The notes beneath the pieces were generated by a model. It did no database searches. It saw nothing but the letters and a program-made list of their open reading frames with translations, and was not told where the DNA came from. Position numbers and translations under genes: made by a program. Shown piece after piece: positions 42,551-63,169 of a stretch of 63,516 bases of DNA (positions within the stretch are counted from its first letter, which is position 1; every line of letters starts with the position of its first letter). This stretch comes from Alphaproteobacteria bacterium (GTDB lineage: Bacteria > Pseudomonadota > Alphaproteobacteria > UBA828), in contig JAJDVB010000043.1 of the NCBI GenBank assembly GCA_022826345.1, positions 1 through 63,516 on the forward strand. Reading direction: 5' to 3'.

Positions 42551-43858
42551 ATGAAGAAGAAGTCCATCGACGCAGAGAAATTCCTCGTATCGAGAGCAGG
42601 CGTGGACAGCGCGTTTCGCGCACGTCTGCTCGCGAATCCCAGAGAAACGATCGAAAAGGAATTGGGTGCAGCGCTGCCCGAGGACCACGAGATTCACGTG
42701 CACGAAGAAAGCCCTGCCACGACGCATCTGGTGCTTCCCCCGCGTGACAAACGCACCGAGGCCGAACGGGAAGCGGCGAGAACCGGCGCCGCATCGCTCG
42801 AGTATCTGCGCAAGACACTCCACGATCCCGCGCCGCCCCTTCGTCCCCCCGCACCGAAAGGGGCAGAAGCCCGAAGAAAGAAGGCCACTACCGCCGAGGC
42901 ACTTGTGAAGGCGGGCAGGGAGAGCATTCGCCGCGGTCTCGCGTTCCTGGAATCCACACTCGACGAGAACGGGGCCTGGCACTGCATCCGCTTCAATGTG
43001 GCCGATCCGGACATTCCGCGGCACTATGAGAGGCCCGCCTTCATCACGGCTCTTTGCGTCCTTGCGCTGGAACGTTGCGGCGAGGCGCGGGCCGAAGCCA
43101 TGTGCGCCGCGTCCAGGGCGTATCTTGCCGACACCATGGAATATCCCGGATTGTGGCGCTACTACCGCCATTTGCCGCAGGATCTCGACAGCACCGCGCT
43201 CTGCTCGCTTGTGATCGGGAGTCATCCCTGGATTCTGTTGGGGCGGAACGTTCCGCACATTTTGGCGAATCGCGACGAGGAAGGTCGTTTCATGACCTGG
43301 GTTCTGACGGAAGACGAGCCCAGTGTCGTGTCGACCTTTCGTATCGAAGCCGACCCCGTCGTCAATGCGAATGTCATTGCCTACCTCGGCGATCATCCCG
43401 AAACCAGGCGCGCCCAACGATGGCTGGAAGACTTGATTGCCGAAGGAAACGTCGAGGAGTCGTCCAAATGGTATCCTGATACAAGCGCAATTTACTACGC
43501 AATTTCTCGCGCCATGAGTCGCGCGCAACCCGCCCTCCATCGACTACGCCCGGTGCTTGCGGATCGTATCTTGGACCTGTGCGACGAGAGGGGAGAATTC
43601 GGCAACATCCTTCAAACAGCGCAGGCTGTATCGGCGCTCTACAATGTCGGCGGTCTTGAACGTATCGACGCGAAACACCAGATAGAAGAGTTCATAAATT
43701 CCCAACATGAAGACGGTAGCTGGCCCGAACTTCTCGCGTTCGGAGACCAGTCGCTAAAGTGGGGAACGGTGGGACAGATAGGGCATGGCTCCGAAGCCGT
43801 GACCTCTGCCTTTTGTATCGAAGCTCTGGAGCACCTTGTCGAACTCTTGCGATCCTGA
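42551..43858 (+). CDS. NHLP leader fused to a terpene-cyclase-like alpha/alpha-toroid protein
   Basis: The 435-residue protein has two parts. Residues about 20-66 (FRARLLANPRETIEKELGA, HEIHVHEES, THLVLPP) are an NHLP leader, closely parallel to the precursor peptide at 49937-50188. Residues about 105-435 resemble the squalene-cyclase/prenyltransferase toroid: QW-type motifs LDENGAW and NSQHEDGSW, NANVIAYLGDHPET, and QDLDSTA, which aligns with the DxDDTA acid motif of class II cyclases with the last Asp changed to Ser but the likely catalytic Asp kept. An acidic-basic linker joins them. Unlike a peptide precursor there is no Gly-Gly/Ala-Gly plus core. It is the first gene of the rightward biosynthetic series. 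Confidence 0.8.
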   Translation: MKKKSIDAEKFLVSRAGVDSAFRARLLANPRETIEKELGAALPEDHEIHVHEESPATTHLVLPPRDKRTEAEREAARTGAASLEYLRKTLHDPAPPLRPPAPKGAEARRKKATTAEALVKAGRESIRRGLAFLESTLDENGAWHCIRFNVADPDIPRHYERPAFITALCVLALERCGEARAEAMCAASRAYLADTMEYPGLWRYYRHLPQDLDSTALCSLVIGSHPWILLGRNVPHILANRDEEGRFMTWVLTEDEPSVVSTFRIEADPVVNANVIAYLGDHPETRRAQRWLEDLIAEGNVEESSKWYPDTSAIYYAISRAMSRAQPALHRLRPVLADRILDLCDERGEFGNILQTAQAVSALYNVGGLERIDAKHQIEEFINSQHEDGSWPELLAFGDQSLKWGTVGQIGHGSEAVTSAFCIEALEHLVELLRS

Positions 43859-43935: not shown

Positions 43936-46332
43936 ATGCCGCAAGATGCCGTCGTAGACGGTGGCTCAGGCCCAGGCGAGGCTGACAGCAGGCAGCGCAC
44001 CGAGCCCTCGATACTTAACGCCCTTCCGCACTATCTGCCCCTGGCCATTTTTCCGCTGATCGTTGTCGCGGCGTATTTTGGCAGCTGGTGGTTGCTGCCG
44101 CCCCTTCTCTTCATGGCTGTCTCGGGGCCTCTTGATCGGGCGCTCGGCCTCGACGGGCACAATATGGATCCGGCCGGAACGCCAGAACTGCGACTTCTCT
44201 GGCACAATCTGCCGCTATGGATCTGGGCCTTTCTGTGGCCGCCGACGCTCGTTTTCGGCATGTGGCAAATCCTTGTCGCAGATCAGTTCGCGCTCTGGGA
44301 AGCGGTGCTTCTGGGGCTCATTCTGACGATGGAAGCACAGGCCGTTTTCATCGTCGGTCACGAACTGGTTCACCGGCGCTCGACCTGGGAAAGACGGCTT
44401 GGCGAGTTTCTTCTCTCCTCGGCCTCCTATCCGCAATATGCGACGGAGCATGTTTATATTCACCACGCCAACGTCGGCACGCCGCACGACGTGGGATCCG
44501 CACCGAAGGGACAAAGTTTCTGGCACTATTTCCCAAGGGAAGTTGCAAGCAATCTCACGAATTCCTGGAAAGTAGCGGGCGACCGTCTGGCGCGGCGCCG
44601 ACTGCCCGTATGGCATTACAGCAATCCCTTCTGGCGCTACGGCATCGCTCTCGGGTTCTGGTATGGACTGGTTTTCTGGATGGGCGGAATCTGGGCGGTT
44701 CTGGTCTTTGCCTTCCTCGGTCTGTGTTGCGTTTTCTCGATGAAGATCAGCAACTACTTTCAGCACTATGGTCTGCGCCGGGTGCGACTGCCCAACGGCC
44801 GCTGGGAGAAGGTATTGCCACGCCATTCCTGGAGCGCTGACTGGAAATTCAGCAACTGGATGTTCTTCAACATGCAGCGCCATGCGGATCATCATGCGGT
44901 GGCATCCCGCCACTACCCGCTGTTGCAGGTGTGGGGCCCCGACGAATCGCCGGAATTGCCGGGAACCTACGGCGATATGATGAATATCGTGCTGCGGCCG
45001 AAGCGCTGGTTCGCAAAGATGGATCCCCTGGTGGATCAGTGGCGCGCACATTTCTATCCCGAGATCGATGACTGGAGCGCCTACGACAGCCCGCTGTCCG
45101 CGGCGCGGCCCGAGTCCTTCGAGGCGATCGTCGAAATCTTCGGCGCCGCTCCTCGGCTCGCCAGGTGGATCGAGCGCAATTCGCAGGTTCTCGACAGCTT
45201 GCAGGATCGGGAATTCACCGATCTCGATCTGCCGAAGGGATTCGGCCCCGATCCCGAATACGAGACGATCGCGCGGCGCGGGCTCGCCAGACTCTACTGG
45301 ACGCACGAGATGGGCGTTCAGGAGATGCAGGACCGGATCACCGAGTTGCCGACGGTCGATGCACGGGAATCCGCCGAGAGCGTGCGCAACTGGTCCAACG
45401 ACAAGGCATTTCAGATCGGCATGCACGTCGTGCGCGGAAACCTGTCGCCGGCCGAAGCGAAGACCGCGCTCTCCAACCTGGCCGAAGCGTCCATTTCGAC
45501 CGTGCTGGCCGCAGGCGTCGCGGACTTCGTCGAGCGGGCCGGGCCACTGAGCGCGGGTGGGGTCGTCGGCGTATTCCTGGGCGATCTCGCCAGCCGAGAG
45601 GCCTTTCCCGGCGTCGCCCTCGAGATGCTCTTCGTCCATGAGGACGAGCGGTCCGGCGAGAACCAGAGTCTCGTTCGGCGCTTCCGCAAGGCCCTGACCG
45701 AGATGGCACGGGACAGCCTGCTCTTTTCTCCGATCCCGTCCGGCTCGAAATCCCTTCTTGCCCTGCCGCTATCTGAGCTGGCCGAGCACTGCGGGGCTCC
45801 TGATTCCAGCGACATTCCCCTCCTCACCCGGGCGCGCTGCGTGTTCGCGTGCGGCGATCCCGACATCGGCCGGCGCTTCGACGAGGCACGCCGCGGCGTC
45901 CTGACCCAGTGCGGCGCGGACGAGTCCCTCTTCGCCCGGTTGCGTCAGCCGATGGATGCCCCCTCCAATTCGGGCGTGGCGGCATACGCCCGTATGCGCG
46001 GCGGACTGGACGAGGTCGAGAAGGCCGCCCGCTTCCTGCAGCTCACGAGCGCCGGAAGCCGCCTCGACGATCCGGCTCCGAGCGCTGCGGCGGTGTTCGA
46101 TGCCGCCGGCGCCGAGCCGCTGGCGCAGGCCGCGGCCCTGTGGCGGGACCTACAGGCAATCATGCGCCTCGTCGGCGAGGACGGATTCGACCCGGTCGCG
46201 GCCGGCCCGAAGGTCCAGTCGCTCGTCGCGAACGCGTGCGGGCACGAGGATTTCGCTGCGCTGGAAGCGGCGGTCGCCGAGACCGCATCCCGCGCCGCCG
46301 CGCGGATCGATACGCTGCATTCGCGCGAGTGA
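43936..46332 (+). CDS. AlkB-type di-iron hydroxylase fused to a degenerate GlnE-like domain
   Basis: The first 400 or so residues of 798 form an integral-membrane alkane-hydroxylase/desaturase domain with its histidine boxes: GHELVHRR near 142, EHVYIHHANVGTPHD near 175, NYFQHYGL near 273 and QRHADHH near 316, among several membrane spans. From about residue 440 the sequence resembles the glutamine-synthetase adenylyltransferase GlnE: LSNLAEASISTVLAAGVADF, PIPSGSKSLLALPLSEL and LTRARCVFACGDPDIG match RLRPSGSKG and LTRARVVAGD there. The catalytic SDLDL of GlnE reads VALEM here, so the domain has probably lost nucleotidyl transfer. It lies 77 bp after the leader-cyclase gene and its stop overlaps a possible GTG of the next gene. 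Confidence 0.8.
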   Translation: MPQDAVVDGGSGPGEADSRQRTEPSILNALPHYLPLAIFPLIVVAAYFGSWWLLPPLLFMAVSGPLDRALGLDGHNMDPAGTPELRLLWHNLPLWIWAFLWPPTLVFGMWQILVADQFALWEAVLLGLILTMEAQAVFIVGHELVHRRSTWERRLGEFLLSSASYPQYATEHVYIHHANVGTPHDVGSAPKGQSFWHYFPREVASNLTNSWKVAGDRLARRRLPVWHYSNPFWRYGIALGFWYGLVFWMGGIWAVLVFAFLGLCCVFSMKISNYFQHYGLRRVRLPNGRWEKVLPRHSWSADWKFSNWMFFNMQRHADHHAVASRHYPLLQVWGPDESPELPGTYGDMMNIVLRPKRWFAKMDPLVDQWRAHFYPEIDDWSAYDSPLSAARPESFEAIVEIFGAAPRLARWIERNSQVLDSLQDREFTDLDLPKGFGPDPEYETIARRGLARLYWTHEMGVQEMQDRITELPTVDARESAESVRNWSNDKAFQIGMHVVRGNLSPAEAKTALSNLAEASISTVLAAGVADFVERAGPLSAGGVVGVFLGDLASREAFPGVALEMLFVHEDERSGENQSLVRRFRKALTEMARDSLLFSPIPSGSKSLLALPLSELAEHCGAPDSSDIPLLTRARCVFACGDPDIGRRFDEARRGVLTQCGADESLFARLRQPMDAPSNSGVAAYARMRGGLDEVEKAARFLQLTSAGSRLDDPAPSAAAVFDAAGAEPLAQAAALWRDLQAIMRLVGEDGFDPVAAGPKVQSLVANACGHEDFAALEAAVAETASRAAARIDTLHSRE

Positions 46333-46364: not shown

Positions 46365-48683
46365 ATGCCAGCGCAGACGGACACGACTCCCCAGCCCGGG
46401 ATACTGACCAAGACGACTCCCGCGGACCGGGGCCTCGTCGCGCGTCCCGCGCTTGCCCCGCACCTGCAGTGTCATGTTATCGGCGAAGAGCAGGCGCTGC
46501 TGGTGTCCGAATCGTTCAACACCCTGCTGCACGGCAGGCTCCAGTGCGATCTGCTGCCGCTGCTCGACGGTAGGCGCGCGCACGACGAGATTGCCGCGGC
46601 CCTCGAGGGCGCTCATGCCGCCGCCGATGTTCGTGCCGCCATCGTTTCGCTCTCCGCCAGGGGCTACGTGGTCTCTGCCGACCACGGCATGGAGCGAAGC
46701 CGGGCGGCCTACTGGTCGTCGCTCGGCGCATCGCCCCGCTGGGTCGAAGAGCGGCTGGCGTCCTCGCGCATCGCGGTCGAGGGCGACGACGGCCGGCTGA
46801 TCGAGCATCTGGAGGAGAGCGGCGCCAGCGTTGGGGTCGGCGATCCCCAGCTTACCGTTACCGTCTGCGACGACTATCTCGAAGAAGGACTCGCCGCCGT
46901 GAACCGACGCCGGCTCGCGGCGAAAGCGCCGTGGACACTGGTGCGCCCGCGCGGCATGGAGGCGCTCTTCGGCCCCGTCTTTCGCGCGGACAGGCAGGGC
47001 CCCTGCTGGGACTGCCTGGCCTCGCGCCTGCGCAACCATCGGGAGGTCCACGCCTTCCTGCGCAACGTTGCCGGCGAGGAGGCTGCGTTCAAGCCCTTCG
47101 CGGCGCAGCCCGCCGTGCTGGAAGCGCTCTACGGGCTGATCGCGGCGGAGATCGTCAAGTGGCTGGTGCTGAACGAGGCGGCCCCGATTCACAAACACGC
47201 AATCGCGATGAATGTCGGCACGTTCGCGAGCTCGCAGCATCCCGTGATGCGCCGGCCGCAGTGTCTCGCCTGTGGCGACGACGCACTGCATCGGCCGGAT
47301 CGGCCGCCGCTTCCGCTTCGCCTGAGGGCGAGTCCCAAGGCCCATCGCGACAGCGGCGGCGCGCGCACCGTGGCGCCGGAGGTCACCCTGGCGACATACC
47401 GCCATCTGGTGAGCCAGATCAGCGGTGTCGTGACCTGGCTCACGCGCACGACCGACGAAACCGATTCCTGGCTGCATGTCTACTGGGCCGGAAGCAATCT
47501 CGGCATAAGAAGCCGCAGCCTGAGCTCGCTCCGGCGCAGCCTGCGCAGCAAGAGCGCCGGCAAGGGCAGCACGCGGCAGCAGGCCGAGGTCAGCGCCCTC
47601 TGCGAGGCGGTCGAGCGCCATTCGGGCGCCCTCCACGGCGACGAGATCCGCGCCCGCAGGCGATTCGCCGAACTCGCCCAGGGGGAAGAGGCGATCCACC
47701 CCAATGATGCGCAGCTCTTCAGCGACGATCAGCTCGACAACGCGCAACGCATCAACGCGAAGGGCCACCCCTACAATGTCGTCCCGCCGCGCCTCGACCC
47801 CGACGCCGAGATCGACTGGACGCCGGTGTGGTCGTTCACGCAGCGGCGGCATCGCTGGCTGCCGACATCGATGCTCTACAGCATGCCCGCCGAGGAGCGC
47901 GGACCCGCGGACCTGATCGCCGATTCCAACGGCTGCGCCGCCGGCAACACCCTGGAAGAAGCCATTCTGCAGGGCTTTTACGAGCTGGCCGAGCGCGATG
48001 CGTTCGCCATCTGGTGGTACAACCGGCTGAGCGTGCCGGCGGTCGATCTCTCGGGCTTCGACGACGCGTACCTCGCATCGGCACCGGAGCATTACGCTCG
48101 CTACGAACGGGAGCTGTGGATGCTCGACGTCACCTCCGATCTCGGCATTCCCGCGTTCGTTGCGGTCTCGCGCAGACCGGGCGCCGAGACCGAGGACATC
48201 ATCTACGGCGCCGGCGCCCACGCCGACCCCCGTATCGCGGCCCTGCGTGCGCTTTGCGAGCTCAACCAGTGCCTGACCTGGCTGCCGCGTCCCGACAAGG
48301 GCAAGGGCAGACCCACGATCGACGATCCGCTGGCGCTCTGGTGGTGGAAGACCGCCCGCCTCGCCGATTGCTCCTGGCTGGCGCCGGCGGCGAACGAGCT
48401 GCTCCGCACGGCGTCGCACTATCCGGCAATCGAAACGAGCGACACGCGCGACGACGTGGAACACTGTCGCGCGCTGGTCGAAGCCGGGGGCATGGAGTTC
48501 CTGGTGCTGGACCAGACCCGGCCCGACATCGGCATGCCCGTGGTACGGGTCATCGTGCCGGGCATGCGCCACTTCTGGGCACGCTTCGCGCCCGGGCGGC
48601 TCTACGACGTGCCCGTCGGCATGGGCCGCTGCGAGCACCCCCTCGCCGAAGCCGACTTGAATCCCGCCCCCGTGGTCGCCTGA
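46365..48683 (+). CDS. Fused azoline-forming cyclodehydratase (ocin-ThiF-like plus YcaO)
   Basis: The 772-residue protein makes thiazoline or oxazoline rings from Cys, Ser or Thr of a RiPP precursor using ATP. The N-terminal 300 residues are the partner domain that binds the leader, with a four-Cys zinc site at CWDC (about 214) and CLAC (about 302). The YcaO domain (about 400-772) has QQAEVSALCEAVERHSG and SNGCAAGNTLEEAILQGFYE, with ELAERDAFAIWW, for ATP and magnesium. The C-terminus ends in NPAPVVA rather than a clear PxPxP. The ATG at 46365 is preceded by GGAG at eight bases; a GTG at 46329 overlapping the upstream stop is possible. Confidence 0.9.
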   Translation: MPAQTDTTPQPGILTKTTPADRGLVARPALAPHLQCHVIGEEQALLVSESFNTLLHGRLQCDLLPLLDGRRAHDEIAAALEGAHAAADVRAAIVSLSARGYVVSADHGMERSRAAYWSSLGASPRWVEERLASSRIAVEGDDGRLIEHLEESGASVGVGDPQLTVTVCDDYLEEGLAAVNRRRLAAKAPWTLVRPRGMEALFGPVFRADRQGPCWDCLASRLRNHREVHAFLRNVAGEEAAFKPFAAQPAVLEALYGLIAAEIVKWLVLNEAAPIHKHAIAMNVGTFASSQHPVMRRPQCLACGDDALHRPDRPPLPLRLRASPKAHRDSGGARTVAPEVTLATYRHLVSQISGVVTWLTRTTDETDSWLHVYWAGSNLGIRSRSLSSLRRSLRSKSAGKGSTRQQAEVSALCEAVERHSGALHGDEIRARRRFAELAQGEEAIHPNDAQLFSDDQLDNAQRINAKGHPYNVVPPRLDPDAEIDWTPVWSFTQRRHRWLPTSMLYSMPAEERGPADLIADSNGCAAGNTLEEAILQGFYELAERDAFAIWWYNRLSVPAVDLSGFDDAYLASAPEHYARYERELWMLDVTSDLGIPAFVAVSRRPGAETEDIIYGAGAHADPRIAALRALCELNQCLTWLPRPDKGKGRPTIDDPLALWWWKTARLADCSWLAPAANELLRTASHYPAIETSDTRDDVEHCRALVEAGGMEFLVLDQTRPDIGMPVVRVIVPGMRHFWARFAPGRLYDVPVGMGRCEHPLAEADLNPAPVVA

Positions 48684-49936: not shown

Positions 49937-50188
49937 CTACCAGCAGCAGCACAGACCGGCCGAGATGGCCTCGAGCTGCTCCTCGGTGATGTTCGGGTCC
50001 GGCGGCAGCGCGAGATGCACCGTCTGCATGTCACTCTCATGGACCTTGATGGTCATCGAATCGGGAATCGTGATGCCCAATTCCTCGCTGATGGTCGTCT
50101 TTGGGTCAGCGAGAAGCTGTTGCCTGAAGTCCGTGTCCAGGGCGGACTTCTCGACAATCTGCTGCAGCATTTCATCGCCACTTCTCAT
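49937..50188 (-). CDS. NHLP-class RiPP precursor peptide, core LCCCW
   Basis: The 83-residue peptide has the nitrile-hydratase-like leader: DTDFRQQLLADPKTTISEEL, MTIKVHES and VHLALPPDP, then an acidic helix ITEEQLEAISAG and the five-residue end LCCCW. Ala-Gly is the expected cut site for the C39 peptidase of the NHLM exporter. Three adjacent Cys are substrates for the YcaO protein, and the terminal Trp for the halogenase-like enzyme. The ATG is decided by AGGAGG seven bases upstream on the reverse strand; a longer frame exists but lacks such a site. NHLP precursors usually carry longer cores, so this one is minimal. Confidence 0.9.
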   Translation of the reverse strand: MRSGDEMLQQIVEKSALDTDFRQQLLADPKTTISEELGITIPDSMTIKVHESDMQTVHLALPPDPNITEEQLEAISAGLCCCW

Positions 50189-50235
50189 GGCAATCCTCCT
50201 GCATTCTGAATGAAATTCCAGTACGCGAGCGGACC

Positions 50236-50472: not shown

Positions 50473-52854
50473 TCAGGGCGCAGGCGGGGCCCGCTTCGCG
50501 GCTTTCCGGTCCAGCGTCGTCAAGAGCGCCGGCAGGAGCGACAGATCGGCAACCAGCGCAAAGGCGATGATCACCGCGGTCAGGATCCCGACCTCTGCGG
50601 TGGGGACGAAGGGAGAGAACACGAAGATCAGGAAGCCGGCCACCAGCACGATCGTCGTCGTGATCAGGGCCCGGCCACTCGTGTCGAAGGCGTAGCGCAC
50701 CGCGTCTTCCGGGTCCTGGCCGAATTCGCGTCTTGCCCGGCGGTACTTGCTGAGGAAATGCACCGTATCGTCCACGACGATGCCGACCGTCATGGCCACC
50801 ACGACGGATAGCGAAAGGCTCACCTGTCCGACCGCCAGGCCCCAGACGCCCAGCCCCAGCACGGCGGGGATCAGGTTGGGGATGATGCTGATCAGGCCCA
50901 GCCGCAGCGATCGCAGGGCGAAGAGGAGAATAACGGAAATCGCCAGGAGCACGACCGCCGTGCCGATCAGCATGGCCCGGATGTTGCGCTGCCCGATGTA
51001 GGCGAAGAGCGCCGCCGGCCCGGTGCTGTTGACGCCGGCCACGTGCGGCGCGTTCTCCCTCAGCCAGGCCTCGGCATGCGCGTTCAGGTTGAGCAGCTCC
51101 TGCGAGGACAGCGTCTCTGCCGATACGCTCACGCGCGTCGTCGATCTGGACCTGTCGATCTGGTTGTTCAGGTTCAGGCCCTGCGGAAGCGAGAGTTCGT
51201 AGAGCAGCAGGTACTGTGCCGCCAGCTCCTGGCTTTCCGGAATCCGGTAAGCGGCGGGGTCGTCGCCGCGCATGCTCTGGTTGAGCTGGCGGAACGTGTC
51301 GGTGATGACTGCCACGTGGCGCACGGGAGGCTGGTCCCGGTACCACGCGGCGAAGTTCGAAACGTCGGCCAGGAACTCGGGATCGGTGACGCCGCCCTCG
51401 GCAGGCGCGTGCAACGAGTACTCGAGCAGGGTGTTGCCGCTCAGATGCTCGTCCATGAAATCGGTGTCCTGGCGAAACTCGACGCTCTCGTCGAAGAAAT
51501 GGACCAGAACATCGTTGAGTTCGTTGCGCGGAATTCCCACGGCCATCCCGACCACGATCACCAGCCATCCCAACATGAGCGCCTTCCTGTGGCGCAGCAC
51601 GAAGTCCGCAATGACGGTCATCGAGGGTCCACGCAGCCACCGGCGTTCCTTCGGGGCCCGCATGGGGAGAAGCGAAAGCACGGCCGGCAGGAAGGTGACG
51701 GAGAGAATGAAGGAGGCGGCGATACCGATGGCGACGAAATTGCCGAGATGGCGGTAGGGCGGCACTTCGGAAAAGTTCATGCTCAGGAAGCCGAGCGTCG
51801 TCGTGAGGCTCGCCAGAAACACCGGGTGCAGGTTGAGCCTGACGGCTTCCACGATGGCATCGCGCTTGGAATCCCCAGCGCGCAGGCGCTGCTGCAGGGT
51901 CACCAGCAGGTGCACACAGTTCGCCACCACGATCATCAGCACGATGGTCGGCGCCGGCGAGACGGGCGGAGAGAAAGGCAGGCCGAACCACACGCCCAGG
52001 CCCATCGACACGAAAATGGAAAAGACGATGACCATCCCGGTTCCCGCCACCCCCGCCCAGCGCCGGGTGAGGACGCCGAGGATCACGGCCATGAGCAGAA
52101 GGCTCGCAGGCAGGAAGACCATCTGGCTGCTGATCGAGGCTTCCACGAAGGTTTGGTTGATCATGACCGTGCCGACGACGCGCAGGTCGATGCCGGGAAA
52201 TCGCTCTTCCGCCTCCGCCGCGAGCGATCTGGCGAATTCGGCGACTTCCGCCACCGCCTCCAGTAGGCCTTCCTCCGGCAGCTCGACGGTGACGCTTACG
52301 ACGCTGACATCGCCCTTCAGGCCCAGAATGCTGCCGGCGATACGCGGGTCGGACAGAGCGATCTCGCGGATATGCGCGCGCGCTTCGGCTCGGGACAACT
52401 CCTCCGGGTCGACAAGATCCCGCACATACAAGTCGTCGCCGTCGGCGGTCGTGTATTGAAAGTTGGCAAGCGAGTCGACGCGCCTTGAAAATGGTGTCTG
52501 CCAAGCGGCTTCGGTAAGCCAGACGGCGGCCGAGAGTGCATCCTGCGAGGTGGCATCGCCGTCGTCCGGCACGATCAGGAAGGCGATGTTCTCGTTCTTC
52601 CCGTAGGTATTCTCCAGCTCTTCCAGCGCCAGGAGCTGCGGGTTGTCTTCGTCGAAGAAGATGCGGTAGTTCGCGGAGAATTCGAGCTGGGAAATGCCGA
52701 CCGTCGCGACTGCAACCACGAATACGGTAGCCGCGATGACCAGCCAGCGGGCCGCGAGCACCCGTTCGGCAAAGCGGGTCGCGAACTGCTCTCCTGCTAT
52801 GCCGCGCAAGAACACAGCGCCGGCGCCGCTAGTTGCGAACGCCCCTGGGGGCAA
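50473..52854 (-). CDS. RND/MMPL-family transporter
   Basis: The 793-residue inner-membrane protein has two matching halves, each with a membrane helix, a large periplasmic loop and five more helices. The first helix is near residue 40 (LVIAATVFVVAVATVGI); the second-half core contains VSLSLSVVVAMTVGIVVDDTVHFLSKYRRAR, with the paired acids of proton coupling. Such MMPL-like exporters often work with a LolA-like periplasmic protein and a barrel, both of which occur at 59.3-61.4 kb here. The start is a TTG and uncertain. It follows the NHLM ABC gene after 219 bp with a hairpin. Confidence 0.88.
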   Translation of the reverse strand: MPPGAFATSGAGAVFLRGIAGEQFATRFAERVLAARWLVIAATVFVVAVATVGISQLEFSANYRIFFDEDNPQLLALEELENTYGKNENIAFLIVPDDGDATSQDALSAAVWLTEAAWQTPFSRRVDSLANFQYTTADGDDLYVRDLVDPEELSRAEARAHIREIALSDPRIAGSILGLKGDVSVVSVTVELPEEGLLEAVAEVAEFARSLAAEAEERFPGIDLRVVGTVMINQTFVEASISSQMVFLPASLLLMAVILGVLTRRWAGVAGTGMVIVFSIFVSMGLGVWFGLPFSPPVSPAPTIVLMIVVANCVHLLVTLQQRLRAGDSKRDAIVEAVRLNLHPVFLASLTTTLGFLSMNFSEVPPYRHLGNFVAIGIAASFILSVTFLPAVLSLLPMRAPKERRWLRGPSMTVIADFVLRHRKALMLGWLVIVVGMAVGIPRNELNDVLVHFFDESVEFRQDTDFMDEHLSGNTLLEYSLHAPAEGGVTDPEFLADVSNFAAWYRDQPPVRHVAVITDTFRQLNQSMRGDDPAAYRIPESQELAAQYLLLYELSLPQGLNLNNQIDRSRSTTRVSVSAETLSSQELLNLNAHAEAWLRENAPHVAGVNSTGPAALFAYIGQRNIRAMLIGTAVVLLAISVILLFALRSLRLGLISIIPNLIPAVLGLGVWGLAVGQVSLSLSVVVAMTVGIVVDDTVHFLSKYRRARREFGQDPEDAVRYAFDTSGRALITTTIVLVAGFLIFVFSPFVPTAEVGILTAVIIAFALVADLSLLPALLTTLDRKAAKRAPPAP

Positions 52855-53073: not shown

Positions 53074-56016
53074 TCAGGCGACCTGCCTCCTGACCAGTTC
53101 CCTGAACACCCCGTCGACCTCCATGAGCTCGTTGAATGAGCCGCTTTGCACGACTCTTCCGGCCTGCAGCACGTAGATGCGGTCGGCCTGTTCCAGCGTG
53201 GAGAGCCGGTGGGCAATGACGACCCGGGTCGAGGTCAGGGCGGTAAGGTTCTGCATGACCTTGGCTTGGCTTTCATTGTCCAGCCAGTTGGTTGCCTCGT
53301 CAAAGAGCATAATTCGCGGGTTGCCGATCACCGCTCGGGCGATCGTGACGCGCTGACCCTCGCCGCCCGAGAGGACGGCCCCACTGGTGCCGACCATGGT
53401 CATCATGCCCATGGGCATGGCCTTGATTTCGTCTTCGACCTCGGCGATCCGGGCTGCCCTCCACACTTCCTCGGTCGCCACCTTGTCGTGGTGGCTGACC
53501 AGATTGTCCCAGAGATCCTGGGGGTGGAGGCCGACCGATTGCGGCACGGCGCCGATCTTTCGGCGCACCTGCTTCAGGTTCAGGTGCCTTAGATCGCGTC
53601 CGTCGTGATACACCGCGCCGGCGCTCGGCCGGTCGATTCCAAGCGCGAGCCGGAACAGGGTGCTCTTGCCGGCGCCGGACTCGCCGGCAATCGCGACGAA
53701 TTCGCCGGGACGGGCCCGGATCGTGACATCGTCGAGAATCAGCGGGCCGTCGGGGTCGTAGCGGAAGGAAATGCGGTCGAAGAGAATGTCGCCGCCAAGA
53801 TATTCGACCGGCTCTCCGCCGACCTCACTTTCGGGGACTGCGGCGAGCAGCGGGCGCATCTGATCGAAGGCCGGCAGTATGGCGGCAATGGTGCCGAAGG
53901 ACTCGCCAAGCCGGGCAAGGGCGGACTGGAAGACGATGAAGACGATGTAGACGACGAGAAAATCGCCGACCGGGAGGGTCCGCTCGCCCACGCCCACCGC
54001 GGCGAATAGCAGCACCCCGCCGGCAAGGAAGGGGAGCGCGGCACCGAATGCCCGCGAATGTCCCTCGAGGGTGCCCAGCTCGATTTCCGCACGCTTCTGC
54101 TCGCGATAGTCCCGCGCCCAGATGGCGAAAGCCGACCCCTCCGCGTTTTCCACACGCAGCTTGGCGATACCGCCCACGATCTGGAAGAGCCGCCCGGCGA
54201 CGCGCCGTGCTGCGCTGATCATCCGCCCGTAAGGCGAAATCTGGCACAGCCCGAGAACCACGGTGACCAGCAGCGACGCCAGGCTGAAAACGAGGGCGAC
54301 GATCCCCAGGGTGGCGTCGTAAAAGAAGATGACGCCGAAAACCGGAAGCAGAAAAAAGACCGAGAGCAGGCTGTCGGCGACGACTCCCTGTACGCCGTCG
54401 CGAAGGTTCTGAAATGTCATCCCCGACATGGCCAGATCGCCGGCCGGCTGGCGGTGCAGAATGCTCGGCGGAAGGCGCATGAGGCGGTCCCAGACCGCCG
54501 CTTCGAGACGCGAGGCCGAGCGCCCCTCGAGCCGCATCATCGCCGTGCTTTGCAACAGGTGCAGCAACGCCCCAAGCAGGCCGAACCCCGCGAGACCCGC
54601 GGCCACGACATAGAGTGCGCCGGCGCTTCCGCCAGCCGCCACCTGAGTCGCGACGAATCCCAGCGCGAGCGCCGGCAGCAGCTTGATCATGCCGGCCGGA
54701 AGCCCGGCAATCACCAGCCGCGCCAGATCCGGGGCCGATCCATGCAGGGCGATACCCAGCAGGTCCGCCGGTTTCACGTTCCCCGCGGGCAAGGGCCGAT
54801 AGAACATCCAGGCTTCGTCGCCGAGCGCGCCGGCACGTTCCGCCGTAATCCGGACGCTGCGCTTGCTGACCGGGTCGATGACCCGGTAGCGCCCGAACAT
54901 TCCCGGCAGCAGCGCCACGGGCTGGCCGTCTTCGGCGCGGAATACCAGCAACGCGTTGCTGTCGCCGCGCCACCAGTTGGCTTCGGTCCTGAGCCGCACG
55001 CGCCGCGCGCGCACGCCCGACGCATCGAGAACGTCGACGAGGCCGATCGGGGCATCGGATGGTCCCGAGCGCACCGGAATCGTGAAATCGATTCCTTCAT
55101 GGCGGCCGATGATCTGCAGGGCATCCGCCAGGGACGTGTCCTCAACACTGGCATCCCGGTCGATCGGCAGGTCGTAAATGTTGAAGAGCCGCTGGCGCGC
55201 GGCCCTTTCAGCCGTGCGGCGGCTCGTCGTCCGCGCGCGTTCGAGATTCGCGTCGTCGACCATGGCCAGCTGGCGGTTGAGGCGCTCCAGGGCGAGGGCA
55301 ACCGCGTGAAAGGAGGCGAGCGCCGGCAGCAGCATGCCTTGCTGCGCCAGTGTTTCGCTCGACTTGCCCGAAAGGGTCGCCTCGTCGAAGAGGGTGAGCC
55401 AGCTTGTCCTCGTCAGTGGTATGAGCGCTTCGTGCGGGCCCTCCGTCCCGGCAAGCTCCGCCAGGTCGACGATGTTCATGAACAGGCCGGCGCCGTGCGG
55501 CGGCTCCGACACCCAGACCACGCCGCGCCGTACGGACAGTGTGCCAGGAGCCAGGGTCTGCGTCAGACTGGGTTCAGCCAGCGCGGTCGGACGCGGAAGA
55601 TAGCTTGCAAAGCGCGAAAGCGTGTCGGTGATGGCGGTCAGCCATGTATCGGTCTGCTCCGCCAGTTCTGCGGGATGAACCTCGGACAGCAGCGATGCCG
55701 GCAGGCGTTTCAGGAGGGTGCCTGGCGATCCCTTGGCAATCAGGCTGAGCGTCGTGTCTGCGTCCTTGTCGCGTTTGCTCGGTGCGACGCCCGGCAGCAG
55801 CCAGCCCGCTTCACGGCGCAAGAGATGCTGCGGCGCCGCCTGCTCCACCCCGTCCTTGAACTCGACCAGGAAGAGGTTGACGGCGCCCCGATCGATGAAC
55901 CAGACGCTGTCCGGGTCGTCTAGGCACACCGGCAGGTTGCCGGCGCAGGGCACGGACGTGCCGGAGCGAGCGGCAAGCTCGGCTATCGATGCGTATTCCG
56001 GTCCTTCTTCCTGCAT
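53074..56016 (-). CDS. NHLM exporter, second ABC transporter protein
   Basis: The 980-residue protein matches the second ABC subunit of NHLM (nitrile hydratase leader microcin) export systems: a long N-terminal soluble part with a cyclic-nucleotide-like domain (about residues 1-430), a membrane domain (about 430-720) and an ATPase with Walker A GESGAGKSTLFRLALG, signature LSGGEGQRVTIARA and Walker B RIMLFDEATNWLD. The family lacks a peptidase domain and works beside the C39-type partner. The ATG overlaps the stop of that partner (TGATG), which decides the start. Confidence 0.9.
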   Translation of the reverse strand: MQEEGPEYASIAELAARSGTSVPCAGNLPVCLDDPDSVWFIDRGAVNLFLVEFKDGVEQAAPQHLLRREAGWLLPGVAPSKRDKDADTTLSLIAKGSPGTLLKRLPASLLSEVHPAELAEQTDTWLTAITDTLSRFASYLPRPTALAEPSLTQTLAPGTLSVRRGVVWVSEPPHGAGLFMNIVDLAELAGTEGPHEALIPLTRTSWLTLFDEATLSGKSSETLAQQGMLLPALASFHAVALALERLNRQLAMVDDANLERARTTSRRTAERAARQRLFNIYDLPIDRDASVEDTSLADALQIIGRHEGIDFTIPVRSGPSDAPIGLVDVLDASGVRARRVRLRTEANWWRGDSNALLVFRAEDGQPVALLPGMFGRYRVIDPVSKRSVRITAERAGALGDEAWMFYRPLPAGNVKPADLLGIALHGSAPDLARLVIAGLPAGMIKLLPALALGFVATQVAAGGSAGALYVVAAGLAGFGLLGALLHLLQSTAMMRLEGRSASRLEAAVWDRLMRLPPSILHRQPAGDLAMSGMTFQNLRDGVQGVVADSLLSVFFLLPVFGVIFFYDATLGIVALVFSLASLLVTVVLGLCQISPYGRMISAARRVAGRLFQIVGGIAKLRVENAEGSAFAIWARDYREQKRAEIELGTLEGHSRAFGAALPFLAGGVLLFAAVGVGERTLPVGDFLVVYIVFIVFQSALARLGESFGTIAAILPAFDQMRPLLAAVPESEVGGEPVEYLGGDILFDRISFRYDPDGPLILDDVTIRARPGEFVAIAGESGAGKSTLFRLALGIDRPSAGAVYHDGRDLRHLNLKQVRRKIGAVPQSVGLHPQDLWDNLVSHHDKVATEEVWRAARIAEVEDEIKAMPMGMMTMVGTSGAVLSGGEGQRVTIARAVIGNPRIMLFDEATNWLDNESQAKVMQNLTALTSTRVVIAHRLSTLEQADRIYVLQAGRVVQSGSFNELMEVDGVFRELVRRQVA

Positions 56017-58226
56017 CAGCCTGACTTGACCAGCTTGTAGTAGGTGCCGTCTCGGTCCGCGATCAGCTCGTCGTGGGTGCCGCGCTGCACCTCGATTCCC
56101 TTGTCGAGCACGATAATCTCGTCGCAATCGCGCACAGTGCTGAGCCGGTGCGCCACGATCAGGCAGGTGACGCCGCGACGCCGCAAGGCATCGTCGACGT
56201 ATTCCTCCGTCGCGGCATCGAGGGCACTGGTCGCCTCGTCCAGAATGAGCAGTGTCGGGTTGCCGACCAGCGCACGGGCGATTTCCAGCCGCTGCCGCTG
56301 GCCACCGCTGAAGTTCGCTCCGCCTTCCTCGACGAGCGTCGCGTATCCCTGCGGTCTGAGCAGGATTTCGTCATGGATCCCAGCATCCCGTGTCGCAGCG
56401 AAGATGGTTTCGTCCGGAACTGCCGGATTCCACAAGGTGATGTTGTCGCGCAGGGTCGCAAAAAAGAGCACGCTCTCCTGCGCCACCATCGAGTTGGAGC
56501 GCCGCAGCACTTCCTCGGGAATCTCGTCCCGCACATGGCCGTCGAACAGGATCTCGCCCGACCAGGGTTGGTAGACACCCGAAACCAGACGCGCCAGAGT
56601 CGACTTGCCGGACCCGCTGGGCCCGACTAGGGCAACTCTCTGCCCTGGCTTAATGGTGAGGTTGAAATCCTTGATCAGAGGCGGCCGGCTCCTGTTGAAC
56701 CCGAAGGTGACGTTGCGCAGCTCGAGGCGACCTGCAAGCTGAAGGTGGCCGTTGAAGGTGACGATCGATTCCGATTCCGGATTCCGGCGGTTGAAAACGG
56801 GGTCTTCGGCGGCCCTGGAGATGTCGTCGAGACGCTGCAAATCTGTCTCGAGCGCCTGGCGCTTGTCGGCGAACTCCAGGAAACGCCCGACGGGCGCCAG
56901 AAACATCTCTGCCAGGATATAGAACCCGACCAGGGTTCCCAGGCTCATGTCCCCGGTCATGACCATGCTGCCCCCGAAGCCCAGGATCGCCGCGCCGCGA
57001 AATGCGGCGATCAGGCCCGGAAGCGCGCCATTGACGGAGCCCAATTCGGAATAGAGCTGGCGTGCGTGCAGTTCGCGCGCCTGCTGGCCGCTCCAGCGCG
57101 AGAAGAACCGGTCATCCGATCCCGTCATGCGCAGATTGTCCGCATGACTCAGCATCTGCATGCCCACGCCGATCAGCAATCCCTGCTCGCGCCGCATCGC
57201 CTGGCTGCGAACGGACCGGAGGCCGTTGAGGAAGTGGGCCAGCAATCCGTGCAGAAGGGCCAGAGCCAGCACGATCAGCGTGAGCACGACATCGTAGGCA
57301 AACATCGCGATGAGCAGCACGACGCTCATTGCCATGTCGACCAGGAGCACCAGGAACTGGTCTGTCAGATTCTTCGCGATTCTGTCGATGGATGAGACCC
57401 GGTCGGTCAGGTCGCCGACCAGTCTGTGTTCGAAGAACTCCACCGGCAGGCGCAGCAGCCGTGACAGGCCCCGACTGTAGCCGGTCACCGAAATCCGGAC
57501 TGCGAGCCGCTTCAGGAAGCGGTGCTTGAGCAGGGAAAGGATGTATACCAGGGCAGCGCCGCCCAGCAGGGCCGCCACCAATCCGCCCCAGCCCCCGTGA
57601 TTTCCCAGAACATCGTCCACGAAGACGCTGAGAGACAGGGGGATGATGAGTGTCAGTAACGTCAGCATGAGGCCGCAGGCAATCACCCAGGTGACCGTGC
57701 TCGATGATCCCACGGCCAGGGCGCCCAATTGCCTGAACAGGCCGGGCGGCTCGCCGCCGGGGCTGAATTCGGCGCCGCGCTCGAATTGCAGGGCGATGCC
57801 GCTATAGCCCTTGTTGAACTCTTCGGTGGAAAGCCTGCGGCGACCCGTGGACGGATCGTTGAGATAGAAATGGCGGCCGTCGTAGCCTTCGAGGACAACG
57901 AAATGGCTGAATTGCCAAAACAGGATCAGAGGCAAGTGCAGCTTTTTCAATTGCTTGGCGCGTACGCTGAGCCCCTTGCATTCGAGGCCATAATGTCGGG
58001 AGGCGCGCAAGATGCTGGCGGCACTGCTACCGTCCCGGCTCACCTCGCATTTTTCGCGCAACTCGGTCAGCGGTACCCAGCGCCCGAAGTAGGCCAGTAT
58101 GCTGCCCAAGCAGGCGGCGCCGCATTCCGATGCGTGCATCTGCAACAGAATCGGGGTGGTCACCCTTCGCTTCAAGACGTCCGATGCGGCCTTGTCGCTT
58201 GCCTCCTTGGAGGCGCGGGAGTACAT
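56016..58226 (-). CDS. NHLM exporter, C39-peptidase ABC transporter
   Basis: The 736-residue protein has an N-terminal C39 peptidase (catalytic Cys in QMHASECGAACLGS, His in WQFSHFVVLEGYD, Asp in YLNDPSTG), a six-helix membrane domain and an ATPase with GPSGSGKSTLARLV, FSGGQRQRLEIARA and LLILDEATSALD. It should cut the leader after the Ala-Gly of the NHLP precursor and export the rest. All three peptidase residues are intact. It lies one base after the HlyD-like gene. Confidence 0.93.
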   Translation of the reverse strand: MYSRASKEASDKAASDVLKRRVTTPILLQMHASECGAACLGSILAYFGRWVPLTELREKCEVSRDGSSAASILRASRHYGLECKGLSVRAKQLKKLHLPLILFWQFSHFVVLEGYDGRHFYLNDPSTGRRRLSTEEFNKGYSGIALQFERGAEFSPGGEPPGLFRQLGALAVGSSSTVTWVIACGLMLTLLTLIIPLSLSVFVDDVLGNHGGWGGLVAALLGGAALVYILSLLKHRFLKRLAVRISVTGYSRGLSRLLRLPVEFFEHRLVGDLTDRVSSIDRIAKNLTDQFLVLLVDMAMSVVLLIAMFAYDVVLTLIVLALALLHGLLAHFLNGLRSVRSQAMRREQGLLIGVGMQMLSHADNLRMTGSDDRFFSRWSGQQARELHARQLYSELGSVNGALPGLIAAFRGAAILGFGGSMVMTGDMSLGTLVGFYILAEMFLAPVGRFLEFADKRQALETDLQRLDDISRAAEDPVFNRRNPESESIVTFNGHLQLAGRLELRNVTFGFNRSRPPLIKDFNLTIKPGQRVALVGPSGSGKSTLARLVSGVYQPWSGEILFDGHVRDEIPEEVLRRSNSMVAQESVLFFATLRDNITLWNPAVPDETIFAATRDAGIHDEILLRPQGYATLVEEGGANFSGGQRQRLEIARALVGNPTLLILDEATSALDAATEEYVDDALRRRGVTCLIVAHRLSTVRDCDEIIVLDKGIEVQRGTHDELIADRDGTYYKLVKSG

Positions 58227-58227
58227 C

Positions 58228-58779
58228 TTATGGCTGCCTCATGTGCAGGAAGGCGACCGGAGACTGGCTGCCGAGTTCAATGAAAATCCGGCATTGCTTG
58301 CCCGCAAGAGAAGCGAATTCTGGGTTTTCGTCGAGCACGATGTCGACGCGGTGCACCGAGACCGGCACTGCGGTCGCAAACGCCGCCGGCACCTCGGACA
58401 AGGGTACTGCGGCAACCGTCACGATTTCTCCGTCGAGCGTGGCCGTTTCGCCGTTCGTCGTGTCCAGCTCTATCGCCGCTGGCATCCCGGCCTCGATGTG
58501 CGGCGCGACGTCGCTCTCGGCCCAGACGAGCGCTTGCAGGGAGCGGGCCTCGCCGGACAGGTTTGTGCCCGGTTTGAGCAGAACGCCGTCGACCGCCAAG
58601 TTTCGGGTTACGTTGCCGAGGAAGAGCCATGCCACGATGGCGATCAGCAACAGAGCGATAACGGCAACAAGCAAACGTTCCCGGGGCGTAGAAATTGTCA
58701 ACAGCCGGTCAAGTTGCTCTCGTTCTTCTTTCGCTTCGGCGACAGTATTGTGAAATGAGTCGAAGGGATTGTTGAACAC
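58228..58779 (-). CDS. NHLM-type HlyD-like membrane fusion protein, short
   Basis: The 183-residue protein has a cytoplasmic N-terminus (SFHNTVAEAKEEREQLDRLL), one membrane helix (LLVAVIALLLIAIVAWLFLG, about 36-55) and a periplasmic part with NLAVDGVLLKPGTNL and LQALVWAESDVAPHIEAGMP, as in the beta-barrel and clasp of NHLM secretion proteins. It lacks the lipoyl and coiled-coil segments of full adaptors, being about 60-100 residues shorter than I expect. It is the first gene of the leftward transport operon. Confidence 0.75.
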   Translation of the reverse strand: MFNNPFDSFHNTVAEAKEEREQLDRLLTISTPRERLLVAVIALLLIAIVAWLFLGNVTRNLAVDGVLLKPGTNLSGEARSLQALVWAESDVAPHIEAGMPAAIELDTTNGETATLDGEIVTVAAVPLSEVPAAFATAVPVSVHRVDIVLDENPEFASLAGKQCRIFIELGSQSPVAFLHMRQP

Positions 58780-59266: not shown

Positions 59267-60163
59267 ATGGTCATCGTGGGATCTACGCGGATGTTCCCAG
59301 ACGACAGAAGCGCCACAAAACGGTTTATCGGCCGAGGCCGGTCGCAGCGTTTCTCGCGCCCCCGGAGTGCTTCGTCCAATGTCCTTGTTCTGGCGCTCGT
59401 GTGCCTTTGCTTGCCAATTGCACACGCCCTTGCCCAAGAAGAAACGCCCGAGGACAAGGGCCTCAGGATTGCGCAGGAAGCAAGCGCCCGCAATGACGGC
59501 TTCGGGGATTTCACCGCTGAAATGACGATGGTGCTGCGCGACCGGCAAGGTCGGGAGAGCGTCCGTCAGATGCGCTTCAAGGTCCTCGAAGTGCCGGAGG
59601 ATGGCGACAAGAGCCTTTTCGTGTTCGATCAGCCGCGCGACGTGCGCGGGACCGCTCTCCTGACCCATGCCCACATCAACGCTCAGGACGATCAGTGGCT
59701 CTATCTTCCGGCCCTGAAAAGGGTGAAGCGCATCAACGCCGCGAAGCGCTCGGGATCGTTCATGGGAAGCGAGTTTTCCTACGAAGACATGAGCTCTCTG
59801 GAGGTGGAGGAATACACCTACAAGTATCTTCGCGACGAACCCTGCGGCGAGCTCACTTGTACGGTGATCGAGCAGGTTCCCTTGGACAAGAAATCCGGAT
59901 ACAGCCTCAAAGTCGTCTGGCAGGACTCGCTCGAGCTTCGCACCTGGAAGATGGAGCTCTATGACCGCAAGGGCTCGCATCTGAAGACGCTCACGCTCGC
60001 GAACTACCAGCAGTTTCTGGGTCGCTACTGGCGTGCAGGGGAGCAAACGATGGTGAATCACCTGACCGGCGCGAGCACGGTACTCAAGTGGAGCGACTTC
60101 CAGTTCCGCACCAACCTTGAAGACGGCGAGTTCACCCAAACTGCACTTCGACGCGTGCGCTGA
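59267..60163 (+). CDS. LolA-like outer-membrane lipoprotein-sorting protein
   Basis: The 298-residue protein has a long N-terminal region ending in a signal peptide (VLVLALVCLCLPIAHALA, about 39-56) and a mature LolA-fold part: FGDFTAEMTMVLRDRQGRES, QMRFKVLEVPEDGDKSLFVF, YLPALKRVKRINAAKRSGSF and GSEFSYEDMSS. This group is typically encoded with MMPL-type RND transporters and is thought to carry lipids or hydrophobic cargo through the periplasm. AAGGTAGGA precedes the ATG. Its stop overlaps the start of the barrel gene. Confidence 0.88.
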   Translation: MVIVGSTRMFPDDRSATKRFIGRGRSQRFSRPRSASSNVLVLALVCLCLPIAHALAQEETPEDKGLRIAQEASARNDGFGDFTAEMTMVLRDRQGRESVRQMRFKVLEVPEDGDKSLFVFDQPRDVRGTALLTHAHINAQDDQWLYLPALKRVKRINAAKRSGSFMGSEFSYEDMSSLEVEEYTYKYLRDEPCGELTCTVIEQVPLDKKSGYSLKVVWQDSLELRTWKMELYDRKGSHLKTLTLANYQQFLGRYWRAGEQTMVNHLTGASTVLKWSDFQFRTNLEDGEFTQTALRRVR

Positions 60164-61416: not shown

Positions 61417-62691
61417 GTGATACAGCCGGGCAGCAAGTCCTTGCGAAAGATCGCGGTCGTCGGGCGGGGCACCGCAGGCTCCTTGGCGGCCGCCAGCGTG
61501 AGCCGTCTTCATCCCGAGGGCGAGCACGAGCTGCACCACATCTACGATTCGCGCATCCCGGTCATCGGCGTGGGCGAGGGCAGTTGGCCGAGCCTGGTTC
61601 AGGAACTGCAGAAACTGACCGATTTGCCCCACGAAACCGTCCAGCAGCGCCTGAACGGAACGCGCAAGTACGGCGTCGCATTCGAGGGATGGGGGCGGCG
61701 CAACCGGGACTTCACCCACTACTTCACGCCGCAGCAGGTGTCCTACGCCTACCACCTGTCCGCCGATGTGATGGCGGACCTGCTGCACGAAAGCACGTGC
61801 GCGCGCCACATCGATGCGAATGTTCTCAATATCTCCAGGATGGAAGGCGGCGCGCAAGTGGAGTGCGAGGGACTGGCGCCGGAACGCTACGATCTGGTCT
61901 TCGATGCCCGCGGGTTTCCCAAGGGACTCGATCCCGAGCAGCACATCGAGATTTCATTCATCCCCACGAATACGGCCGTCATCCGCCGTTGTCCGGCAAT
62001 CATCAAGGAGGAGAATGACGGGCCGGTTCTGCAGCATACCTACACCCGCGCGGTGGCGCGTCCGCACGGTTGGATCTTCGTCATTCCGCTCACGGTGCAC
62101 ACGTCCTACGGGTACATCTTCAACCGCGACGTAACCGGACTTGCCGACGTCGAAGCGGACTTCGACGCGTTTCTTGAAGGCGATGGCGTGACGGAATTCG
62201 AGCAGCGCGCCGTCATTCCCTTTCCCAACTTTGTTCACCGTCGGATGTTCGACGGCGCGGTGGCCCGCATCGGTAATGCGGCGGCCTTCATGGAGCCCCT
62301 CGAGGCAACGGCGATCGTCTCCGCCCAGTTGCAGATCGGGATGGTTCTCCACATACGCCTCAACCGCTCGGCCGAGCATCTCGAGCGCGACGCACCGGTG
62401 GTCAATCGCTTCCTCATCAACAACATGCTCTGTTACGGCCTCTTCGTCGGCTGGCACTATTCCTGCGGCTCCAGGTACGACAGCGAATTCTGGCGCTACG
62501 CGCGTGAGCAGGCTTGGCCCCGACACCGCGAGGCGGCGGCGCCCGAGGCGGTGGGGGGCGCCGCGCTCCGGAAGTTCGACGACATGATCGAGCTGTTGAA
62601 CCGGCCGGTCATCGACAAGGCGGACTGGAGCCGGATGTGCGCCGTCCCCCTCACCAGCTACGCCCAGATGTCTCAGGGGCTTGGCTGCTAG
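61417..62691 (+). CDS. Flavin-dependent tryptophan-halogenase-like protein
   Basis: The 424-residue protein has the FAD motif VVGRGTAGSLAA at residues 14-25, VIGVGEGSWPSL, NGTRKYGVAFEGWG with the Lys that steers hypohalous acid, HGWIFVIPL in place of the WxWxIP halogenase signature (second Trp is Phe), and GNAAAFMEPLEATAI, the halogenase form of the substrate-side loop with its Glu. It is about 100 residues shorter than free-Trp halogenases. The start is a GTG after GGGAGCG, 24 bp downstream of the barrel gene. The precursor ends in Trp, the obvious candidate substrate, though flavin monooxygenase chemistry is not excluded. Confidence 0.8.
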   Translation: MIQPGSKSLRKIAVVGRGTAGSLAAASVSRLHPEGEHELHHIYDSRIPVIGVGEGSWPSLVQELQKLTDLPHETVQQRLNGTRKYGVAFEGWGRRNRDFTHYFTPQQVSYAYHLSADVMADLLHESTCARHIDANVLNISRMEGGAQVECEGLAPERYDLVFDARGFPKGLDPEQHIEISFIPTNTAVIRRCPAIIKEENDGPVLQHTYTRAVARPHGWIFVIPLTVHTSYGYIFNRDVTGLADVEADFDAFLEGDGVTEFEQRAVIPFPNFVHRRMFDGAVARIGNAAAFMEPLEATAIVSAQLQIGMVLHIRLNRSAEHLERDAPVVNRFLINNMLCYGLFVGWHYSCGSRYDSEFWRYAREQAWPRHREAAAPEAVGGAALRKFDDMIELLNRPVIDKADWSRMCAVPLTSYAQMSQGLGC

Positions 62692-63084: not shown

Positions 63085-63169
63085 GCGGGCGTGGCGGAAG
63101 CGGTAGACGCGCGGGTCTCAAAAACCCGTTCCTTCGGGAGTGTGAGTTCGAGTCTCACCGCCCGCACCA
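63085..63169 (+). tRNA. tRNA-Leu(CAA)
   Basis: A full cloverleaf can be drawn. The acceptor stem GCGGGCG pairs with CGCCCGC and is followed by discriminator A and an encoded CCA. The D arm reads GCGGAAGCGGTAGACGC. The anticodon stem CGGGT/ACCCG encloses CTCAAAA with anticodon CAA at 63119-63121. A long variable arm (TTCCTTCGGGAG) and the T arm GTGAG-TTCGAGT-CTCAC complete a class II leucine tRNA that reads UUG. Confidence 0.95.

Follow-up and report, generated by a model that had tools for sequence, protein, structure and literature searches.

Predicted prenyltransferase-like and NHLP-fused terpene cyclase genes beside an SrpE-type proteusin precursor on an alphaproteobacterial contig

The locus and its precursor peptide

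The window analysed here is the whole 63,516-nucleotide stretch (positions 1 to 63,516, forward strand) of contig JAJDVB010000043.1, assembly GCA_022826345.1, from an Alphaproteobacteria bacterium of the UBA828 lineage. It carries the gene of an NHLP (proteusin) precursor with a five-residue core, genes for a YcaO cyclodehydratase, a flavin-dependent tryptophan brominase and NHLM transporters, and two further genes, one for a 373-residue protein of predicted alpha-beta-beta-alpha (ABBA) fold and one for a class II terpene cyclase fused to an NHLP leader domain (Table 1). The peptide is almost certainly SrpE, with its partners SrpC and SrpI, of the sponge-symbiont srp proteusin cluster. The precursor is thus already in print and its finding is a rediscovery; the interest lies in how its neighbours are read.

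The frame at 49937..50188 lies on the minus strand and, read from 50188 down to 49937, comprises 83 residues ending in ...NITEEQLEAISAGLCCCW, followed by a stop. A plus-strand reading of the same positions was rejected, as the frame there is unrelated. The textbook NHLP leader, strong ribosome site and AISAG-LCCCW ending claimed in a first-pass annotation of this DNA were all borne out: TIGR03793 matches residues 6-78 of 83 well above its cutoff (71.1 bits, cutoff 50.9; E 5.3e-20), AGGAGG lies at 50200..50195, 6 bases 5' of the ATG at 50188..50186, and the ending, read on the minus strand, is kept in homologues. A search of the PDB with the peptide gave 8tb1, an NHLP leader/TH1 chimera, as top match (E 9.5e-11).

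In the available parts of papers from the Agarwal group, SrpE is described as a sponge-microbiome proteusin with the core LCCCW; its three cysteines are turned into thiazolines by the YcaO enzyme SrpC, and its C-terminal tryptophan is brominated at indole C6 by SrpI, which requires the leader, has an essential Lys84 and is self-brominated at Tyr102 and Tyr110 (PMC10858898, PMC10286304). The window has the leader family, the LCCCW core, the adjoining YcaO and the brominase residues in common with the srp cluster, and its halogenase carries K84, Y102 and Y110 at the exact numbers of SrpI. The first-pass idea of a YcaO-made tris-thiazoline with a modified tryptophan was therefore right, and it matches SrpE/SrpC/SrpI chemistry that was already known. 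The one difference counted against the identity is I67, which is L67 in printed SrpE: residues 66-72 read NITEEQL here and NLTEEQL in print, so that the L(X)4L motif (residues 67-72) stands at the right position with its first leucine replaced by isoleucine. No dehydrogenase family was found among the 12 window gene products scanned, and thiazolines, not thiazoles, are therefore expected. The srp cluster was reportedly described from marine sponge microbiomes by Nguyen et al. in 2021, in an abstract said to have termed its product cryptic.

Conservation and occurrence of the LCCCW ending

A protein search yielded 703 homologues with E <= 1e-3, the best 120 of which were examined. All 120 end in LCCCW, and 119 of 121 sequences (query included) are exactly 83 residues long. 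In one-per-species public genomes, 162 stretches encode a SrpE relative, and 80 of these were kept; every one reads LCCCW-stop in register. The ending is thus neither chance nor the result of a stop moved by a sequencing error, a possibility raised at first pass together with that of homologues extending past the stop, none of which were seen among the best 120 homologues and the 80 loci. TGT replaces TGC at at least one Cys codon in 12 of the 80 loci, and the ratio of nonsynonymous to synonymous polymorphism (pN/pS) is 0.11 across the precursor gene, so that the core residues are under selection and the ending is no sequencing slip.

Locus titles name Alpha-, Gamma- and Deltaproteobacteria, Acidobacteria, Gemmatimonadetes, Nitrospira, Nitrospinota and Binatia, among others; many of the loci are presumably sponge metagenome bins, to judge by what the bins are called, Spongia_Bin9 being the one obvious example. 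The YcaO protein nearest to that of the window belongs to an alphaproteobacterial bin (L006, 89%). A YcaO tree of 57 rows has 9 phylum-label changes (minimum 5) and joins a Binatota and an Acidobacteriota row at full support; horizontal transfer events are not claimed from it, because the phylum labels were taken from titles of metagenome-assembled genomes (MAGs). No SrpE was found on plasmids, where 4 records hold distant NHLP precursors (identity <60%), and none of 47 pattern-matching stretches on viral contigs encodes a SrpE relative.

Second precursor-like frames were seen in a few genomes. One (L104:3747-3920) ends LCSCW, has a much changed leader and looks decayed, and its genome also has a normal copy; another, in a SrpE-bearing genome (L101:2625-2834), ends LCCCW with a changed start. 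The second precursor copy of L109 carries L67.

The prenyltransferase-like protein and the NHLP-fused cyclase

The model predicted for the 373-residue protein is an alpha-beta-beta-alpha barrel of five helix-strand units, with 11 strands listed, and its fold neighbours among the matches listed are prenyltransferases, most of them indole prenyltransferases. Eight residues (E64, D75, R211, K316, H345, K347, K359 and Y361) are invariant in 11 of 11 family members, down to 25% identity. Several points weigh against the assignment: it draws solely on the predicted fold, the Foldseek TM-scores are just 0.38-0.55, no curated family scores above cutoff, and neither the 37-row nor the 11-row profile gave a sequence match to solved prenyltransferases. 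As no curated family matched, the protein is named here "ABBA-fold, prenyltransferase-like" and placed in no named family. Of the relatives listed, the few with a name are called "hypothetical protein". A SagB-type azoline dehydrogenase, by analogy with MprD, was considered for this gene and dismissed, since there was no family match and the listed fold matches are prenyltransferases. From gene order it may be guessed that this is the D gene and the cyclase gene the A gene, YcaO being C and the precursor E in print.

The cyclase model has an alpha/alpha toroid fold; its NHLP part is of low to middling confidence, which counts against the biosynthesis proposed below. The catalytic aspartate of the DxDD/DxDTT motif (D213 of DLDST here) is kept in 37 of 37 cyclases and in both distant ones aligned. 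The closest neighbours in fold and sequence are drimenyl/drimenol synthases, which were solved with farnesyl pyrophosphate and would suit a cyclase that acts first on a free terpenoid diphosphate, the prenyltransferase then attaching the cyclic terpene. This order is quite unlikely: MstE, nearly as close, was solved with an already prenylated dihydroxybenzoate, the cyclase domain of NctPC (see below) works after Trp prenylation, and the NHLP domain of the window cyclase suggests a substrate bound to the peptide or near it.

Within that NHLP domain the second leucine of the recognition motif is replaced by arginine in 36 of 37 sequences and by lysine in the remaining one. The glycine is invariant (37/37) and is preceded by T, A, G, R, H, S, N or K. 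C39 cleavage sites need a small residue before Gly; as the residue before the invariant Gly varies, removal of the domain by the C39 peptidase in the manner of a leader is not pressed.

Linkage in SrpE-bearing genomes

With the window proteins as queries over the 80 SrpE-bearing genomes, 79 gave a match to the prenyltransferase-like gene, and cyclase and brominase were each found in 74. The loci extend to 10 kb or to contig ends, and 43 are full-length; both genes are present in 37 of these 43, the cyclase alone in 4, the prenyltransferase alone in 1 and neither in 1. The two genes are matched at at least 90% coverage in 53 of the 80 loci, on the same strand in 52 of the 53; between them lie the YcaO and desaturase-like genes (34 loci), the YcaO gene alone (11) or no window gene (8), the spacing in the last case being 37-245 bases. 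In 61 of 64 cases SrpE and the prenyltransferase gene are less than 1 kb apart and lie on opposite strands. Against the biosynthesis proposed below stand the genomes in which a gene was not found (prenyltransferase 1, cyclase 6 and brominase 6 of 80, all MAGs whose completeness is not given), one in which prenyltransferase and cyclase are both in pieces (G065), two with a brominase split in two (G011, G019) and one with a 90-residue brominase fragment (G010). A one-stop flag fell on 12 prenyltransferase matches; in the one compared (G033, L033 ORF) the stop is a natural gene end.

The product could be bromo-tris-thiazoline LCCCW and nothing more, with the 373-residue and cyclase-like proteins serving as chaperones, immunity proteins or recognition partners. 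The published activities require neither protein, SrpI brominating in vitro a substrate that bears no isoprenoid, and the 373-residue family, whose few named relatives among those listed are called "hypothetical", cannot be linked by sequence to any known prenyltransferase. The srp texts, in the parts available, also mention no isoprenoid on the product: in those parts "prenyl" and "terpene" are absent from PMC10858898 and PMC12615548 and occur in PMC10286304 only within a reference, and "prenyl" and "terpene cyclase" are absent from PMC9426513. The follow-up and survey texts searched, which do not include the founding 2021 description, make no mention in their available parts of a srp prenyltransferase/cyclase pair; likewise, in the accessible portions of the literature searched, no proteusin with an ABBA prenyltransferase was found, and texts on sponge proteusins and prenyltransferases name no srp prenyltransferase. 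However, each of the two folds on its own suggests isoprenoid chemistry, and the constancy of the cyclase aspartate and of the eight residues of the 373-residue family also argues against purely accessory roles, which are considered unlikely.

Site of the isoprenoid

In the same genomes, 11 NHLP core kinds besides LCCCW were counted near distant prenyltransferase relatives; the count is uncontrolled, the core boundaries were set by us after GG, AG or SG, and several kb may separate a precursor from the prenyltransferase. Seven of the 11 hold Trp or Tyr, five of them at the very end. The other four, which speak against an aromatic acceptor, all contain Cys (GECIC, VCQC, LCACM, SAGCM), so that the acceptor may be another residue; the isoprenoid could then sit on a Cys thiol or some other site, with thiazoline formation and prenylation competing or using different cysteines. 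Against this alternative, which we hold to be very unlikely, stand the aromatic majority, the predominance of indole prenyltransferases among the fold neighbours, and the two core kinds accompanied by a cyclase, which lack Cys and have the endings ..GGDSW and ..TDDSY. As far as core sequences can indicate, they lean towards a C-terminal aromatic residue as acceptor, but with four Cys cores among them this is no general rule.

Several stretches with prenyltransferase relatives were noted. In one (L103:3421-15709), NHLM transporters and two prenyltransferase relatives accompany an MbnB/TglH/ChrH enzyme, a DUF2063 protein and three NHLP precursors, whose endings are GGECIC, GGVCQC and GGLCACM. 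Two others (L102:2652-14996, L117:3955-10200) hold a srp relative whose core is WCCCGN, together with a prenyltransferase relative (49%); the former also has MMPL and NHLM genes and two methyltransferases, with no match there to the srp YcaO. The GGDSW/TDDSY precursors are found with NHLM transporters and adjoining prenyltransferase and cyclase genes (L111:4129-13253, L112:2285-10266, L113:3277-11258); neither the srp YcaO nor the srp brominase had a match in these three stretches, which perhaps represent a further type of terpenoid proteusin, simpler than srp. L115:3829-9159 holds a prenyltransferase relative with NHLM transporters and a distant flavin halogenase (25%) in its vicinity.

Proposed biosynthesis

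The best explanation of the locus, to which we give a probability of about 0.7, is that a SrpE precursor undergoes the published srp steps and, in addition, prenyl transfer, cyclisation and C39 cleavage with export. By orthology, SrpC would turn the three cysteines into thiazolines, and the C-terminal Trp would be brominated at indole C6 by SrpI, to which the leader end serves as guide. The ABBA-fold protein may take an isoprenoid unit from a diphosphate donor and attach it to the core, the (bromo-)Trp being the likeliest acceptor, and the NHLP-fused cyclase would then protonate and cyclise the chain, as MstE does on prenylated arenes; finally, the C39 transporter would cut after Ala-Gly (AG78) and export the pentapeptide. 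The order of these steps is itself conjectural. Cleavage after Ala-Gly fits the gene content. A terpenoid step of some kind is probable, and Trp as its site is put at even odds. Slightly below that we place the joint reading in which a RiPP cluster common across sponge microbiomes yields a brominated indole-terpenoid tris-thiazoline pentapeptide and the cyclase NHLP domain, a copy of the leader fold of the precursor with its second motif leucine changed to Arg or Lys, is a leader mimic, itself no substrate of YcaO or brominase but able to travel with either precursor or exporter.

Such a step would be no new kind of chemistry in view of two precedents. The mpp cluster of Moorena producens, in the available parts of its descriptions, has a SrpI-like brominase, an ABBA-type prenyltransferase that acts on Trp and depends on the leader, and a gene for a terpene synthase (PMC12715784, PMC11791876). 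It resembles the window as a cluster (MppE, MppI, MppC, MppD) for a ribosomally synthesised and post-translationally modified peptide (RiPP) with leader-dependent Trp brominase, ABBA-type prenyltransferase and terpene synthase gene, and differs in its Nif11-like leader and in having a lanthionine synthetase where the window has YcaO. NctPC and ChrPC (Hubrich et al. 2024), according to a review, attach a prenyl chain to Trp in ribosomal peptides and afterwards cyclise it, the NctPC domain being MstE-like (PMC13290415). The window has putative prenyltransferase and cyclase genes and a Trp-containing core; in NctPC and ChrPC the two activities form one protein, whereas the window has two genes, the cyclase with an NHLP domain.

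Two further systems are more distant. PalQ/PalX of Paenibacillus alvei likewise involves an NHLP precursor whose C-terminal Trp is prenylated, but PalQ has an isoprenoid-synthase fold, not ABBA, and its three-gene cluster is described without brominase or YcaO. MprE/MprC/MprD, as far as the available text goes, shares NHLP precursors with YcaO-made azolines and differs in its azoline oxidase, for which the window products scanned offer no counterpart family.

If the 373-residue protein and the NHLP-fused cyclase do add and fold a terpene, the cluster product can be searched for at definite masses: bromo-tris-thiazoline LCCCW carrying C10, C15 or C20 would have computed [M+H]+ values of 787.213, 855.275 and 923.338. 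The native product would then be heavier than bromo-LCCCW, and the mass search range should be widened. A peptide prenyltransferase family invisible to sequence searches would become testable, and the fusion of a leader domain to a tailoring enzyme would be an unusual way of uniting enzyme and peptide.

Other genes of the window

Table 1. Features of the srp-type locus in the window
Feature	Position	Strand	Evidence or remark
SrpE-type NHLP (proteusin) precursor, 83 residues	49937..50188	-	TIGR03793, homologues, genomic loci
Leader, residues 1-78, Ala-Gly at end	49955..50188	-	
Core Leu-Cys-Cys-Cys-Trp, residues 79-83	49940..49954	-	
L(X)4L-type recognition motif, I67...L72	49973..49990	-	published SrpE has L67...L72
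Shine-Dalgarno AGGAGG	50195..50200	-	read in sequence
ABBA-fold prenyltransferase-like protein, 373 residues	48693..49814	+	no family by sequence
NHLP leader domain (about 1-78) and class II terpene cyclase (about 112-435)	42551..43858	+	
DLDST motif, cyclase residues 211-215	43181..43195	+	D213 aligns with AsDMS D333
SrpC-type cyclodehydratase, leader-binding E1-like domain and YcaO	46365..48683	+	TIGR03882, TIGR03604 above cutoff; PF02624 E 6.6e-95
SrpI-type flavin-dependent tryptophan brominase, 424 residues; K84, Y102, Y110	61417..62691	+	PF04820 E 2.8e-44
Fatty-acid-desaturase/AlkB-like membrane oxygenase fused to GlnE-like domain	43936..46332	+	PF00487 E 3e-28
MMPL/RND exporter-like protein	50473..52854	-	PF03176
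NHLM transporter permease/ATPase (ABC2)	53074..56127	-	TIGR03797 664.2 bits, below equivalog cutoff 709.4
NHLM C39 peptidase/permease/ATPase (ABC1)	56016..58226	-	TIGR03796 843.4 bits, slightly below equivalog cutoff 853.3
Short NHLM HlyD-like protein	58228..58779	-	TIGR03794 weak, 27.1 bits

The YcaO protein was queried from 46362, one codon upstream of its start, which was checked. The desaturase/AlkB-like protein could possibly provide a further oxidation step; its GlnE-like C-terminal half is weak, with a Pfam GlnE match near the cutoff, and the fusion is matched as a single protein (coverage at least 90%) in 43 of the 80 srp loci. At the same coverage the MMPL/RND exporter-like gene is present in just 17 of 80. 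The C39 protein ABC1 is likely both leader protease and exporter. The HlyD-like protein (183 residues) covers just the start of the 421-position TIGR03794 model. Between the transporters and the brominase (59267-61392) lie a LolA-like and a weakly DUF1302-like gene, of which the former is matched in 25 and the latter in 19 of the 80 loci at no less than 90% coverage, and a tRNA gene (63085-63166) follows just downstream of the brominase.
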